From the NCBI GenBank assembly GCA_012797845.1, contig JAAZOH010000041.1, positions 1 to 51,759 on the forward strand: 51,759 bases of DNA. The letters are read 5' to 3'. The position numbers were made by a program, and so were the translations under genes. The notes below the pieces were generated by a model. The model had not been told where the DNA came from, did not search any database, and worked only from the letters and a program-made list of their open reading frames with translations. Source of the DNA: Candidatus Beckwithbacteria bacterium. GTDB lineage: Bacteria > Patescibacteriota > Microgenomatia > UBA1400 > UBA1449. Below, in pieces: positions 8,817 through 31,997 of this stretch. Each line of letters opens with the position of its first letter. Positions within the stretch are counted from its first letter, which is position 1.

Positions 8817-10127
8817 TTAAAATAGTCCTAGTTGAGATTGAGAGGGAGTATTGTCTGTCGCACCATTACCCCAGATTTTAACCGTTCCAAAGACACCATC
8901 ATACCCAGGTTCAACTACAATGTCACCAGACCGAACCTTGGCTATAGCTTGACCAAGTTTAGTTCCTCCAACACTTTCTATGGCCTTAATATCAACTTCC
9001 CGCAAAATAGCTAACTCAGATTTAAATTGATCAATCAGTTGATCATATAAGATAGCTACTGCTTTAGTATTAACTCCTTTTTCTAATATTTCAGCAATGA
9101 TTTCTTTAAGTGGTACTAACATCACATATGGGTTTGTACCTGACTGCTCTGCTTGATAATGAGTAATACCCTGCTTGTCTGTTTTTTTGACAATTTCCAC
9201 ATCCCGACTAGCCAACTGCTCCACTCGACCCATAACTCCTAAAGTCAAAGGTTTGCCACAAACATGACACATTTGCCCTCTACTCCGAGTTTCTTGTGGC
9301 AATTGCCTGATATTACATTTAGCATGACCATCGACATGATATTTGCCTTCTTCAGGATAAAATTCAATTGTTTCTTTGATTCGCCAATCACCTTTTTTCT
9401 GCAAAGCAGCTTTAAAATCTTGGTAGCTAAAATTTTCTTTGTTTTTGCTTTCAAAAATTGTTAATTCCCGGCCTAGTTTATCCGGACTATGAGCATCAGA
9501 AAAAGACACAATTGAACGATTATCAAATTCGGTAATCCGCCAGTTCATCGCTGGATCAGAAGATAGTCCGGTTTCTACTGCATAAATTTTCTCCGCATAT
9601 GTACCGCAGCATTCCCGCAAGCTATCAAAACCTGATTTAGAGCCTAAAAGTCCAAACCATGGCGTCCAAACATGAGCCGGAATGAGGATAATGTCTTCTG
9701 AAATGCCAAATAAAAGTTTGCATAGGTCAATTATCGATAAACCAATAATGGGCCGGCCATCAGACATCAGGTTGCAACCCCTATTTCTCATAGCTTCATT
9801 AATTTTCTTAACTGTCTCAAGATTAGGAGCAAACACTAAGATATGAATCCGCCGCCCCTTACCTCCTTGACTATAAATACAGGAAATTTCAGTTCCTAAA
9901 ATGTATAAAGCTCCTTCTGACTCTGATTTAACTCGGTAAATACCTTGTTTTGTTTCTTCCAGCTGACTCTCTAATTCTCGAATCCAAAGCGGATGAGTAA
10001 AATCACCAGTAGCCAGTAAATCAATTCCTTTAACTTTAGCCATTTTAGCCATAATTGGCAGTGTCATATTTTTAGAAACGGCTCGGGAATATTTAGAATG
10101 AAGGTGAAGATCTGCTACTAATTGCAT
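8817..10127 (-). CDS. PHP-family nuclease with zinc ribbon, EndoQ-like (COG1379)
   Basis: The 436-residue protein begins with the PHP metal-binding motif His8-Leu-His10 (DLHLH) and continues with TGDFTHP, GTEISC, IPAHVWTPWFG and SFSDAHSPDK, which supply the His/Asp/Glu ligands. A zinc-ribbon-like segment (HAKCNIR ... CHVCGKP) follows, then a helical C-terminal domain. This order matches endonuclease Q, known from Thermococcales, which nicks DNA 5' of deaminated bases and AP sites and binds PCNA. The protein ends QLGLF (432-436), a good match to the bacterial beta-clamp-binding pentapeptide. It diverges from the glycosyltransferase at 10180. The general COG1379 assignment is firm; the substrate is inferred. 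Confidence 0.85.
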   Translation of the reverse strand: MQLVADLHLHSKYSRAVSKNMTLPIMAKMAKVKGIDLLATGDFTHPLWIRELESQLEETKQGIYRVKSESEGALYILGTEISCIYSQGGKGRRIHILVFAPNLETVKKINEAMRNRGCNLMSDGRPIIGLSIIDLCKLLFGISEDIILIPAHVWTPWFGLLGSKSGFDSLRECCGTYAEKIYAVETGLSSDPAMNWRITEFDNRSIVSFSDAHSPDKLGRELTIFESKNKENFSYQDFKAALQKKGDWRIKETIEFYPEEGKYHVDGHAKCNIRQLPQETRSRGQMCHVCGKPLTLGVMGRVEQLASRDVEIVKKTDKQGITHYQAEQSGTNPYVMLVPLKEIIAEILEKGVNTKAVAILYDQLIDQFKSELAILREVDIKAIESVGGTKLGQAIAKVRSGDIVVEPGYDGVFGTVKIWGNGATDNTPSQSQLGLF

Positions 10128-13735: not shown

Positions 13736-14710
13736 TTAAAACAGACCCATTTGATTATCAGCAGTTTTTTTCTTGGTTTTTTTAGGAGCTGCTTCACCAC
13801 CCATAGTGTCCTGCACCATTTCTTCCCAACTGTCTCCAGGTAAGCGCTTCAGCAAACTTCTAAATTCTAATTGCAAAAACAGCTCTTCAGCTTCTTCGCG
13901 GTTATAGTCGGTAAGTCGGCTCTTGGCTTTATCAAAGGTGATGGGAACATTAATTATAATTGTTGCTAGTTCTTTGGAAAGTTTTGCTATATCTCGATCG
14001 ATTTCCAATTTGTCTTTTAAAGAACCCGAGATCTCACTTAAATGCTGGTAAATTGTTTCCATGCTGCCATATTTAGTAATTAGTTGAGTAGCAGCTTTTG
14101 GCCCTATGCCTTTAACTCCTGGAATTTCGTCACTACTGTCACCCACTAAAGCTTTGTAATCAATGAGTTGTTTGGGTTTAAAACCATATTCTTTTTCAAA
14201 AATTTCTTGATCAAAGGTTTTTTCCGGGATTCGACCTCGGGATGGAAAGTAAACTGATGTTTTAGCTGAGATGAGTTGCAAGGCATCTCTATCACCGGTC
14301 ACAATAGTAATGGCTTCAAAACCATTTTGTTCAGCTTGATACGATAGAGTTCCCAAAACATCATCAGCTTCATACCCTTCGATCCCAAATTGGGGAATAT
14401 TTAACACTGAAACCACTTCTTTGGTACGTTTAATTTGACCAGCTAGTTCTTCATCCATTTTGGGTCGGGAGGCTTTATAACCTTTAAACTGCTTGTGTCT
14501 AAAAGTTGGCGCCTTTTCATCAAAAGCCACAATGGTGTGAGTTGGTTGCAGTTTTCTAAACACTGTTAGCAAAGTACTAGTAAAACCATAAACCGCATTG
14601 GTTAGTTCACCCTGACTGGTTCGCAGGGTTTGGGGAAATGCATGATAGGCTCGATGCAATAAAGCATTGCCATCAAACAACACTAGTTTTTCGGAATGCA
14701 CGTCAGACAT
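13736..14710 (-). CDS. Stand-alone 5'-3' exonuclease (PolA N-domain type) with C-terminal clamp motif
   Basis: The 324-residue protein corresponds to the 5'-nuclease domain of DNA polymerase I without the polymerase. Motifs: LVLFDGNALLHRAY, the arch helix TFRHKQFKGYKASRP, YEADDVLGTL and VTGDRDALQL for metal binding, and the helix-three-turn-helix VGDSSDEIPGVKGIGPKAA. It would remove RNA primers and flaps. A Lys-rich linker (TKKKTADN) leads to the terminal QMGLF, close to the beta-clamp consensus QL[SD]LF, so it is probably recruited to the clamp encoded at 30.9-32.0 kb. It lies 6 bases after the K+ channel gene. Confidence 0.92.
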   Translation of the reverse strand: MSDVHSEKLVLFDGNALLHRAYHAFPQTLRTSQGELTNAVYGFTSTLLTVFRKLQPTHTIVAFDEKAPTFRHKQFKGYKASRPKMDEELAGQIKRTKEVVSVLNIPQFGIEGYEADDVLGTLSYQAEQNGFEAITIVTGDRDALQLISAKTSVYFPSRGRIPEKTFDQEIFEKEYGFKPKQLIDYKALVGDSSDEIPGVKGIGPKAATQLITKYGSMETIYQHLSEISGSLKDKLEIDRDIAKLSKELATIIINVPITFDKAKSRLTDYNREEAEELFLQLEFRSLLKRLPGDSWEEMVQDTMGGEAAPKKTKKKTADNQMGLF

Positions 14711-28030: not shown

Positions 28031-29047
28031 ATGACAAGCACTGCCAATCTCCCCATTAAAGCCAGTACCCAAGACCACCTTGACATTGAAGACATTCAGG
28101 ATGATGTGGTTATTCTCAAAACTGGCGCTTGCGCCCTAATTCTTCAAGTTACCGCAATCAATTTTGGACTTTTGTCAGAAGAGGAACAAGACGCCATCAT
28201 CTTTGCTTATGCCGGTCTTCTCAACTCTCTCACTTTTCCTATCCAGATTTTGATCCGCTCCACCATTAAGGATATTACCGACTACCTACACCTCATCAAA
28301 GAACAAGAGTTTAAACAAAAAAAGCCCTTACTCTTAGAACAGCTTAAAAAATACCGCTCTTTTGTAGAATCTATTGTTAAAGAAAACCAGGTTTTGGATA
28401 AAAAATTTTATGCAGTCATCCCCTTCACAACTCTTGAGCTGGGATTGGTCAATACTCTGGGTAGCTCATTTCAAAAAACTAAAAAATTGCCATATCCCAA
28501 AAACTATATTTTAGAAAGAGCAAAAATGAACCTATACCCCAAGAGGGATCATTTGTTCCGACAATTTGCCAGACTTGGTCTTCAGGCCAAACAATTAAAC
28601 ACCCAGCAAATTCTTGAGTTGTTTTACAATCTCTATAATCAAGAAAATGTTGGGCAGCATTTTGTGGACACCAAAAACTATCAAATCCCCATAGTTCAAA
28701 CCGACCCCAGCAAACAAAATCCAACCTCTCTCGGGGGGCCCACTTTTTCACCTACTAGTTCAAGCATGCCCACAACCCCCTTTCCTAGATCAAATAAAGC
28801 CATAGAAACGACAGAGCCAAAACAATCAATGCAAACAACCCAAAACGCAGCCCTAAAACCAGTGGTCAACCCAACTCATTTTCAGCCTCAAACACCCAAA
28901 TCAACAATAAATAGATCCGAAGTCCAAAACCCATCCCAGCACCCAGCGCTCACCACACCCCCATCGTCACCCAATCCACCTAGCACACCAATAGAAGCAA
29001 CTGACAAAAATGTCTCTGGTTTTAATTATGATAGTAGTGAAATATAA
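28031..29047 (+). CDS. TraC/VirB4 N-domain-like protein with Pro/Thr-rich tail
   Basis: The 338-residue protein has a folded N-terminal region (about 1-215). Its segments VVILKTGACALILQV and FAYAGLLNSLTFPIQILIRS resemble the N-terminal domain found in VirB4/TraC ATPases and in stand-alone TraC-like proteins of CPR genomes. No Walker motif is present. The C-terminal 120 residues are low-complexity (Pro, Thr, Ser, Gln). It lies 15 bases after prgI and 2 before virB4, so it probably assembles with both. The assignment rests on context and weak motif similarity. Confidence 0.7.
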   Translation: MTSTANLPIKASTQDHLDIEDIQDDVVILKTGACALILQVTAINFGLLSEEEQDAIIFAYAGLLNSLTFPIQILIRSTIKDITDYLHLIKEQEFKQKKPLLLEQLKKYRSFVESIVKENQVLDKKFYAVIPFTTLELGLVNTLGSSFQKTKKLPYPKNYILERAKMNLYPKRDHLFRQFARLGLQAKQLNTQQILELFYNLYNQENVGQHFVDTKNYQIPIVQTDPSKQNPTSLGGPTFSPTSSSMPTTPFPRSNKAIETTEPKQSMQTTQNAALKPVVNPTHFQPQTPKSTINRSEVQNPSQHPALTTPPSSPNPPSTPIEATDKNVSGFNYDSSEI

Positions 29048-29049
29048 CT

Positions 29050-30900
29050 ATGTTTAACTTTTTGCCCAAAAAACCAAAATCAGAAACCACACCCAAAACA
29101 AACGACCCCAAACAAACCCTTGTTCGCGGCCTCACCTCTATTCAAGACATTATTGCCCCAGCCTCAATTGAGGTAGATTTTACCAATCTAAAAATTGGTC
29201 AACTACTCTATCGAACCCTATTTGTGGCTGGTTATCCCAGGTTTGTAAACGCCAATTGGCTGTCTCCCTTAATTAACTTCAATCACCCCTTAAATATTAG
29301 TATGTATATATATCCTGTAGATGGGAAAGGAATTTTAGATGATTTAAAAAAGAAAATTGGTGAAATGGAAGCTGAAATCCAAACCGATCTACAAAGGGGT
29401 AAAATTGCTAACATTTCCACTCAAGTTCAATTGGAAGATGCTCGCAATCTACAAGAACAGCTCGCCAAAGGCTCTGAACGCTTTTTTCAATTTGGACTCT
29501 ACGTCACCATTACAGCCAGAGACGAAAAGGAACTAGAAACAGTAACTAAACAAGTTCAATCCATGCTTGGTTCATTGCTTATTATCTCCAAACCGGCTAC
29601 CCTCCAAACCGAAGATGGCTTTAAAACCACTCTCCCCTATTGTGAGGATCGCCTCCAAATCCATCGCAACATGGACACCACCAGCTTAGCCTCAACCTTT
29701 CCATTCACCTCATCTGAGCTAACCGACAACAAAGGAATTATGTATGGTATCAATGCCCATAACGATTCCTTGATTATTTTTGACCGCTTTAGCCTAGAAA
29801 ATGCCAATAGCGTGGTTTTTGCTAAATCCGGAGCAGGAAAATCTTATCTTGTAAAACTAGAGAGTTTGCGTTCCATGTTTTTTGACACCGAAGTCATTGT
29901 CATAGACCCAGAGGCAGAATACAACGATCTCTGCAAAATTGTGGGAGGAGAACAAATCGATTTCTCTTTCAATTCCCCTGCGCGCATCAACCCCTTTGAC
30001 TTATCGCAAATCTATAATGAAGAAGAGAACGAGCTGGGTTTAAAAATTTTATCACTTCATTCTTTGTTTAAAATCATTATGGGCAATATGAATGCTATTG
30101 AAGAAGCTATTTTAGACAAAGCCCTAGTTTTAACCTACAAACAAAAAGGTATCACTCCGGACCCTAAAACCCAAAAAAATGCCCCGCCTTTATTAGAAGA
30201 CTTATATAAAGTGCTGATTGGCATGGAGGAAGAAAGGGCTGCTTCGCTGGCTGCTCGAATTGAAAAATATGTTAAGGGTAGTTTGCGCGGCATTATTGAC
30301 CAACCATCCAATATCGATCTTCGCAACCAATTTACCACCTTCAACATTAAAGAGCTCAGTAACGAGCTGCGCCCTATAGCCATGTTTATTATCCTTGATT
30401 ACATCTGGACCAAAATCAAACAAGATTTAAAGCGACGCCTCTTAGTAGTTGATGAGGCCTGGTATCTCATGCAACACCCCGACTCAGCCTTGTTTTTATA
30501 TGGCATGGCCAAGCGGGCTCGAAAATATTATCTAGGAGTCACCACCATCACCCAGGATGTTGAGGATTTCCTAACAACCGACATGGGCAAGGCTATTGTC
30601 ACCAACTCCTCTATTCAAATGCTTTTAAAGCAGTCAACTGCCGCCATTGACAAATTGGCTAAAGTTTTCTACCTATCCCAGGGAGAGCGCAATCTCCTAC
30701 TCTCAGCGGGCATTGGGGAAGGTTTATTTTTTGCGGGCGCCAATCATGTGGCTATGCGAGTCGTGGCCTCTCCAGATGAACATAAACTTATAACTTCGAA
30801 TCCACAAGAAATTTTAGCCATGCGCCAAAGCCAGGGTCAACAACAGCCTTCTGATCAAAAAACAGAAATAGACAAGGCCCTAGAGAGCCTTGGATACTAA
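29050..30900 (+). CDS. VirB4/TraC-type conjugation or secretion ATPase
   Basis: The 616-residue protein has an N-terminal TraC-like domain (about 20-190) and a C-terminal FtsK/HerA-type ATPase. Walker A is FAKSGAGKS (258-265 region), followed by VIVIDPEAEYNDL; Walker B is RRLLVVDEAWYLM and the C-terminal motif includes VTTITQDVEDFL and IVTNSSIQMLLKQS. It should power pilus assembly or substrate transfer at the inner membrane. No relaxase or coupling protein is in the window, so DNA transfer is not demonstrated. The stop codon overlaps the convergent dnaN stop by 4 bases. Being on + left of oriC, it is transcribed towards the origin. Confidence 0.93.
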   Translation: MFNFLPKKPKSETTPKTNDPKQTLVRGLTSIQDIIAPASIEVDFTNLKIGQLLYRTLFVAGYPRFVNANWLSPLINFNHPLNISMYIYPVDGKGILDDLKKKIGEMEAEIQTDLQRGKIANISTQVQLEDARNLQEQLAKGSERFFQFGLYVTITARDEKELETVTKQVQSMLGSLLIISKPATLQTEDGFKTTLPYCEDRLQIHRNMDTTSLASTFPFTSSELTDNKGIMYGINAHNDSLIIFDRFSLENANSVVFAKSGAGKSYLVKLESLRSMFFDTEVIVIDPEAEYNDLCKIVGGEQIDFSFNSPARINPFDLSQIYNEEENELGLKILSLHSLFKIIMGNMNAIEEAILDKALVLTYKQKGITPDPKTQKNAPPLLEDLYKVLIGMEEERAASLAARIEKYVKGSLRGIIDQPSNIDLRNQFTTFNIKELSNELRPIAMFIILDYIWTKIKQDLKRRLLVVDEAWYLMQHPDSALFLYGMAKRARKYYLGVTTITQDVEDFLTTDMGKAIVTNSSIQMLLKQSTAAIDKLAKVFYLSQGERNLLLSAGIGEGLFFAGANHVAMRVVASPDEHKLITSNPQEILAMRQSQGQQQPSDQKTEIDKALESLGY

Positions 30901-31997
30901 GAGGCCTTAACCGGCATAATGATGTGAATAAAATTGGGATCCGCCTCGCTCGTAATTTTAGCCGGAGCCAGTGGTCCATTGAAAGAAATGGTAACCCCCT
31001 CTTTTCCAGCCACTCCTAAATATTCCAAAAAGTAGCGAAAATTAAAGGCAATCTTGATTTTTTCCCCTCTAAATTTACTCTCCATCAACACTTCGCTTTG
31101 ACCCAAGGCACTCTCCTGGGTATATATTTGTAATTGCTTATCCAGCTCCCATACCATAATATTAGCGCTTTGCCTGGCAAAAACCGCAATTTGGCGAATA
31201 GCATTTTGCAGATCTTCTCCTCCTATTTGCAAAAGCCCCCCTTCGGTTTTGGGCATAATTTTTTCATAATCTGGAAAGTCGCCATTAATCACCCTAATTG
31301 CAATTAAGGTTTCCCCTCTCTCAAACCAAGCCTGACCACCCTTGGGATCATAGCCAAAAACCAATTCATCGCCCTCAACCCCCCTCACAAATGAGAGAAT
31401 GGCTTTGGCTGGCACAATAAAAGAAAAGTCTTCCCCTCCCCCAATCTTAAGCTCAATCAAACTCAGTCGATATCCGTCTGTACCAACAATACCAAGCTTG
31501 CCCTTTTTGTTTTGCAAAAGTAGACCAGTCAACACGGGACGACTCTCATCAATAGAGCTGGCAATACTAGCTTTTCTAATGGCATCAACAAAAACCTCAC
31601 TTTTAATCCCTACCCCACCCCCTTTTCCACTCAAAGAAAATTTAGGAAAATCCTTGTCGCTCCCCAAACTAAAACTGGCCCTACTCCCCTTCTGAAAAAC
31701 CAATAGCTTATCATTTTTTTTCTGCAACTCCATGTCCCCCTCCCCTAGCGTTTGCACATAATCAAATAGTTGTCCACCATTTATTACAAACGACTCATCT
31801 TGTTCATATTTATCTACTCGACTTTTAACCTTTACCTGAGTAGAGGAGGTAAAATCCGTCGACCTCATCACAAGAACATCTTTGCTTATTTGCAATAAAA
31901 TTGAACCAGATAGCGTTGGATGATTGGGATTTTTACTGGTATTATTAACTGTCTGCAAACACCTTGAAAAATCTACTTGGTTGATGATTAATTTCAT
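30897..31997 (-). CDS. dnaN: DNA polymerase III beta subunit (sliding clamp)
   Basis: The 366-residue protein has three repeated clamp domains: MKLIINQVDFSRCLQTV, VDAIRKASIASSIDESRPVLTGLLL with VGTDGYRLSLIE, and the third ending PNFIHIIMPVKAS. The C-terminal I-x-x-I-M-P-V-K segment is part of the peptide-binding groove that receives QL[SD]LF-type tails. Two proteins in this window, the EndoQ-like nuclease and the 5' exonuclease, end with such tails. It follows dnaA on the same strand across a 223-base intergenic region rich in DnaA-box-like sites. Confidence 0.96.
   Translation of the reverse strand: MKLIINQVDFSRCLQTVNNTSKNPNHPTLSGSILLQISKDVLVMRSTDFTSSTQVKVKSRVDKYEQDESFVINGGQLFDYVQTLGEGDMELQKKNDKLLVFQKGSRASFSLGSDKDFPKFSLSGKGGGVGIKSEVFVDAIRKASIASSIDESRPVLTGLLLQNKKGKLGIVGTDGYRLSLIELKIGGGEDFSFIVPAKAILSFVRGVEGDELVFGYDPKGGQAWFERGETLIAIRVINGDFPDYEKIMPKTEGGLLQIGGEDLQNAIRQIAVFARQSANIMVWELDKQLQIYTQESALGQSEVLMESKFRGEKIKIAFNFRYFLEYLGVAGKEGVTISFNGPLAPAKITSEADPNFIHIIMPVKAS

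Follow-up and report, generated by a model that had tools for sequence, protein, structure and literature searches.

A gene on the reverse strand of a Candidatus Beckwithbacteria contig encodes a protein that we consider, with a probability of about 0.8, to be a bacterial endonuclease Q (EndoQ) and a putative lesion-nicking enzyme tethered to the sliding clamp through its last five residues, QLGLF. The window, i.e. the whole stretch of DNA analysed, consists of positions 1 to 51,759 of the forward strand of contig JAAZOH010000041.1 (assembly GCA_012797845.1). Its relevant features are listed in Table 1.

Table 1. Location of endoQ, of the regions of its product and of the genes of its presumed partners in the window.
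Feature	Positions	Strand	Characteristics
endoQ-like gene	8817..10127	-	ORF of 436 aa, ATG start; matches to PDB sequences and, as a predicted structure, to solved structures
PHP nuclease domain, residues 1-255	9363..10127	-	Ligands D6, H8, H10, D42, E80, H95, H152, E185, D211, H213
Zinc-ribbon region, residues 264-305	9213..9338	-	Predicted ligands H268, C271, C287, C290
C-terminal helical domain, residues 337-402	8922..9119	-	Model pLDDT > 90
Disordered linker, residues 423-431	8835..8861	-	Low pLDDT; variable among homologues
Terminal QLGLF, residues 432-436, putative beta-clamp-binding motif	8820..8834	-	Consensus QL(S/D)LF
Pol I-type 5'-3' exonuclease	13736..14710	-	324 aa, ends in QMGLF; PF02739 (E 2.2e-53), PF01367 (E 8.3e-31)
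dnaN, beta sliding clamp, presumed partner	30897..31997	-	TIGR00663 (E 2.1e-66); three DNA_pol3_beta domains

Identification of the EndoQ protein

The sequence-only reading had assigned this ORF to an EndoQ-like nuclease, and both sequence and structure comparisons bear this out. A phmmer search of PDB sequences returned exclusively PfuEndoQ/Endonuclease Q entries, the best being 5zb8 (E 4.7e-55), and the alignment of residues 4-418 with residues 4-382 of 5zb8 covers the whole length of EndoQ at 36% identity to the Pfu protein. The NCBIfam profile TIGR00375 was also matched (E 1.2e-49), with a score of 169.7 bits that lies below the trusted cut-off of 326.6 bits and leaves the protein outside the family at that threshold. 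None of the homologues from 379 Patescibacteria genomes passes this cut-off, while two of the three control genomes matching TIGR00375 exceed it; judged by these scores, the Patescibacteria EndoQ is a divergent branch outside strict TIGR00375 membership. Pfam profiles gave no match to the window protein.

An AlphaFold2 model generated with 70 homologues as input had a mean pLDDT of 93.8 and a pTM of 0.92. When it was compared to solved structures, for which Foldseek was also run, the closest were 5zb8 (Z 49, rmsd 2.2 over 383 residues) and 7k30, an EndoQ with dU-DNA (Z 47), followed at a distance by the next-best PHP protein (Z 17). The similarity to EndoQ is full-length, including the PHP domain, the zinc ribbon and the C-terminal domain; this last domain shows a weak resemblance to HhH-type domains (Z 5-6 only). 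In a quick tree a very long branch set all bacterial EndoQs apart from the Pfu protein, and the EndoQ of the window was sister to that of Shapirobacteria inside a Microgenomates group.

Metal ligands and zinc ribbon

The PHP domain and the zinc ribbon noticed in the earlier reading are both present, and the full alignment, in which a loss of ligands would have told against the assignment, showed that no ligand is lost. The ten PHP ligands of the window protein align, in the order of Table 1, with Pfu D6, H8, H10, D42, E76, H84, H139, E167, D193 and H195. All ten are invariant when 73 Patescibacteria homologues are aligned with Pfu EndoQ, and among homologues from many bacterial phyla nine are kept in 70/70 and H8 in 69/70. 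The set includes D211, the equivalent of Pfu D193, which the alignment shows as Asn in the 7k31 protein (D193N).

The four predicted zinc ligands occupy the positions of Pfu C249, C252, C268 and C271. They form a His-Cys-Cys-Cys tetrad of residues that are all usual zinc ligands, rather than a strict set of four cysteines, as the first Cys of the Pfu protein is replaced by His. This His was found in 70/70 bacterial homologues and appears, from the alignment, to be a hallmark of the bacterial EndoQ branch.

Two Patescibacteria EndoQ genes (L024:181-2724 and L115:1480-4107) are interrupted by inteins with LAGLIDADG_3 and intein splicing domains. In both cases the insertion point is exactly between PAH and CWTPW, adjoining the equivalent of His152 of the active site.

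The C-terminal tail

The beta-clamp-binding consensus is QL(S/D)LF (PMC9690074), and the window EndoQ, whose sequence ends in TPSQSQLGLF, carries a pentapeptide close to it at the very end of a flexible segment, as the sequence-only reading had pointed out. Residues 423-436 are the sole long stretch of the model with pLDDT < 50, and the linker upstream of the motif differs freely among homologues in both sequence and length. The motif itself is conserved. We searched the last ten residues of 188 distinct homologues whose C-terminus is complete for Qxx[LIM][FLI] or its hexapeptide form and found it in 152, belonging to many bacterial phyla (119 of them have Qxx[LI]F). Shuffled tails would give about 2 matches in 188, and among 342 neighbouring ORFs of these loci there was one match, solely in the loosest class; a chance origin of the motif was thus ruled out. 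Alignment A2 shows the Q in 59 of the 63 rows that have a residue at its position, the L in 63/63 and the F in 56/66, and of 27 homologues whose loci bear the names of other phyla (Omnitrophota, Bipolaricaulota, Thermodesulfobacteriota and others), 23 carry the motif. Conservation of the pentapeptide, on which the earlier reading had made its proposal depend, therefore extends to close and distant homologues. Roughly one homologue in five has no recognizable motif, and some have no tail whatever.

Five EndoQs (L148, L180, L181, L188 and L193; 1038-1168 aa) from Syntrophaceae, Gemmatimonadota, Desulfobacterales and other hosts carry a UvrD/Rep helicase fused C-terminally; the UvrD domains were demonstrated in one of the five. 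Their C-terminal ends are QLKLF, QLRLF, QLGLFD, QLSLF and QMVLFE. The motif may have arrived together with the helicase, and since it could be helicase-derived we use these fusions as supporting evidence only.

The conservation of the motif beyond a variable linker, the disorder of the tail, the existence of other proteins of the same genome with this ending (see below) and the UvrD-fused EndoQs support the clamp-tether reading, and QLGLF is probably the beta-clamp tag of the window EndoQ. Such a tag is common to EndoQs of many bacteria and is no peculiarity of the Beckwithbacteria organism. The proposal that the tether had been re-invented for the bacterial clamp is supported as far as the tether goes; the direction of a switch between PCNA and the beta clamp, and with it the word "re-invented", cannot be read from these data.

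Tail-less EndoQs were found in two genomes, G178 (L031) and G108 (L069), that have no DnaN match; G178 is one contig and 99% complete. Genomes G072 and G314 are also without a DnaN match, yet their EndoQs retain the tail. The coincidence of tail loss with a missing DnaN match is a lead only.

Clamp and repair proteins of the same genome

A dnaN gene had been placed near 30.9 kb, and it was found there. Alignment of its product with other clamps showed that two segments, TDGxRL and FPDY, are retained, as is the C-terminal MP; we take these to be positions of the peptide cleft, after E. coli beta. Genes coding for a TrsD/TraD-like protein and a CD1110-type VirB4 conjugation ATPase (28031-30900, + strand) are convergent with dnaN, near dnaA.

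A scan of the DNA of the whole assembly for Q[LMIVF]x[LF]F followed by a stop identified 42 sites, against 20 for the reversed control pattern. Only three of the 42 terminate ORFs of at least 60 aa, namely EndoQ and two exonucleases. One is the Pol I-type enzyme of Table 1, which NCBIfam describes as DNA polymerase I / 5'-3' exonuclease and which is a likely downstream flap nuclease. The other is an RNase H-fold 3'-5' exonuclease that ends in QIGLF (C38:69318-70720) and directly adjoins xth, the gene for ExoIII, a possible second clamp-linked repair pair. The confinement of this ending to three proteins, all of them DNA nucleases by family, fits a clamp tag.

The repair repertoire of the genome includes UDG, EndoQ, ExoIII and an ATP-dependent DNA ligase; Nfo and EndoV are absent. 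Within the window, endoQ adjoins no gene that stands out as a partner in repair. The link to the ligase, which in the window genome is encoded on another contig, comes from relatives: in about 15 Patescibacteria genomes endoQ is preceded, on its own strand, by a gene for an ATP-dependent DNA ligase (L068, L073, L078, L136, L120, L121 and about nine more loci; TIGR00574 for the two tested), with a gap of 12-24 nt in three genomes and of up to 1.7 kb in the others measured.

Distribution of EndoQ and UDG among Patescibacteria

The earlier view that EndoQ is rare in bacteria cannot be maintained. It is present in 101 of the 379 Patescibacteria genomes, and an alignment-based search of GTDB contigs yielded > 500 confirmed EndoQ stretches, unlike a search of genome contigs with the single protein, which recovered no relative. 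No homologues were found in viral contigs, phages or plasmids, and a mobile origin of endoQ was discarded for this reason.

Uracil is among the commonest DNA lesions, and bacteria are usually assumed to deal with it almost universally by means of UDG. UDG (PF03167) was found in 286 of the 379 genomes, Nfo in 163, EndoV in 3 and DnaN in 363. EndoQ and UDG occur together in 26 genomes, EndoQ only in 75, UDG only in 260 and neither in 18, which corresponds to an odds ratio of 0.024 (Fisher, p 3e-39); at least one of the two is thus present in 361/379. The exclusion persists when each family is represented by a single genome (median p 4e-16), and inside the families that vary it is modest (Mantel-Haenszel (CMH) odds ratio 0.34, p 0.02), so that the signal comes mostly from differences between families and the raw value is inflated by relatedness. 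Three of the 18 genomes with neither gene belong to one family (f92).

EndoQ and Nfo show no association across the 379 genomes (odds ratio 0.92, p 0.8), and the idea that EndoQ substitutes for EndoIV (Nfo) was rejected on this ground. EndoV was rejected as a partner of EndoQ given its occurrence in three genomes only and its absence from that of the window.

Across Patescibacteria as a whole, EndoQ appears to take the place of uracil-DNA glycosylase; it does not do so in the window genome, which has both. A broader proposal, to which we give even odds, is that a clamp-tethered EndoQ pathway including the clamp, the 5' exonuclease and an adjacently encoded ATP-dependent DNA ligase replaced glycosylase-based uracil repair in Patescibacteria, and perhaps in other phyla, with repeated switches between UDG and EndoQ. 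If true, there would be a glycosylase-free uracil route in a large part of bacterial diversity. The 75 genomes with EndoQ and no UDG match make non-glycosylase uracil repair in bacteria directly testable.

Proposed role of the window EndoQ

From the homology, fold, metal ligands, conserved tail motif and genome repertoire observed here we infer the following lesion specificity, clamp binding and order of the pathway. A multinuclear metal site would lie in the PHP domain, which together with the zinc ribbon would form a pocket that accepts an AP site or a flipped-out base deaminated to uracil or hypoxanthine, and the nick would be placed 5' of the lesion. QLGLF, on its floppy tail, would dock in the peptide cleft of DnaN and keep the nuclease at replicated DNA, as the counterpart of the PIP box-PCNA tether of Thermococcales. 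To finish the patch, the Pol I-type 5' exonuclease, which has the same kind of putative clamp tag, could be joined by a polymerase and the ATP-dependent ligase encoded elsewhere in the genome.

The lesion preference could have shifted, given the sub-cut-off TIGR00375 score and the 36% identity to Pfu EndoQ. In bacteria, the main substrate of an EndoQ-fold, clamp-tethered nuclease might be AP sites or a lesion other than uracil, in which case the enzyme would act as a general AP endonuclease. AP-site DNA is a good substrate of Pfu EndoQ (PMC11354406), the bacterial family is divergent from the archaeal one, and the window genome encodes a UDG, a source of AP sites, and no Nfo. However, ExoIII is present in the same genome, and an AP endonuclease would be predicted to exclude Nfo across genomes, whereas it is UDG that is excluded; we regard this explanation as unlikely.

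It is less likely still that the terminal QxxLF is a C-terminal degradation signal, a docking motif for another partner or an accident. The clamp tag is proposed from sequence, and the motif is missing from about 20% of the homologues. Against this, shuffled tails and background ORFs speak against chance, a general degron would be ill-suited to an ending that is confined genome-wide to three DNA nucleases, and QLGLF both fits the published consensus (PMC9690074) and lies at the site of the proven PIP box of archaeal EndoQ (PMC4858679). That the protein is a PHP phosphoesterase with another job, such as an RNA or nucleotide phosphatase of the RNase AM or TrpH-like kind, is highly improbable, as the shared PHP fold accounts for Z scores of at most 17 over the PHP part only, against 47-49 over 383 residues for EndoQ structures, the zinc ribbon and C-terminal domain are those of EndoQ, and the UvrD fusions and DNA ligase neighbours point to DNA repair.

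Comparison with known systems

EndoQ was described from P. furiosus in 2015, when bacterial homologues were mentioned (PMC4357722), and T. kodakarensis EndoQ binds PCNA and is stimulated by it in a PIP-box-dependent manner (Shiraishi et al. 2016, PMC4858679). Beta-clamp consensus motifs in the C-termini of bacterial EndoQs were noted in the same 2016 paper, so the novelty that the sequence-only reading implied for the motif does not stand: the idea of a clamp tether in place of the PCNA one was published there for other bacterial EndoQs, and the activity of a bacterial EndoQ is known from Bacillus. We found no earlier description of the broad conservation of the tag, the exclusion of UDG or the ligase neighbourhood, and in the open literature (subscription journals being outside the scope of the search) no paper on EndoQ in Patescibacteria.

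The window EndoQ resembles the Pfu and Tko enzymes (5zb8, 7k30; PMC4357722, PMC4858679) in its architecture along the whole chain, in the PHP ligands, the zinc ribbon and the C-terminal domain, and in having a putative clamp tag at the extreme C-terminus. It differs in the tag, which is of the beta-clamp type instead of the PIP boxes QRTLLQYI of Pfu and QRSITEFL of Tko (archaeal C-termini taken from PMC4858679), in its predicted His-Cys-Cys-Cys zinc site where Pfu has four Cys, and in insertions relative to Pfu around residues 81-92, 160-166 and 305-335. The Bacillus EndoQs (B. pumilus and the B. subtilis homologue; PMC6202378, PMC4357722) are also bacterial and are compared here through the cited papers; as cited in PMC6202378 from Shiraishi 2017, the B. 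pumilus enzyme acts on U, Hx, X and AP sites.

The UDG superfamily (PF03167) presumably shares with EndoQ the task of uracil repair, and the two are nearly mutually exclusive among the 379 Patescibacteria genomes. In Archaea their distributions are not associated, yet EndoQ has been suggested as a UDG replacement in some orders (PMC6202378). UDG has an unrelated fold and removes the base, whereas EndoQ nicks the backbone. With a PIP box in archaea and a probable beta-clamp tag in bacteria, EndoQ would illustrate neatly how a single repair enzyme can be adapted to two different sliding clamps.
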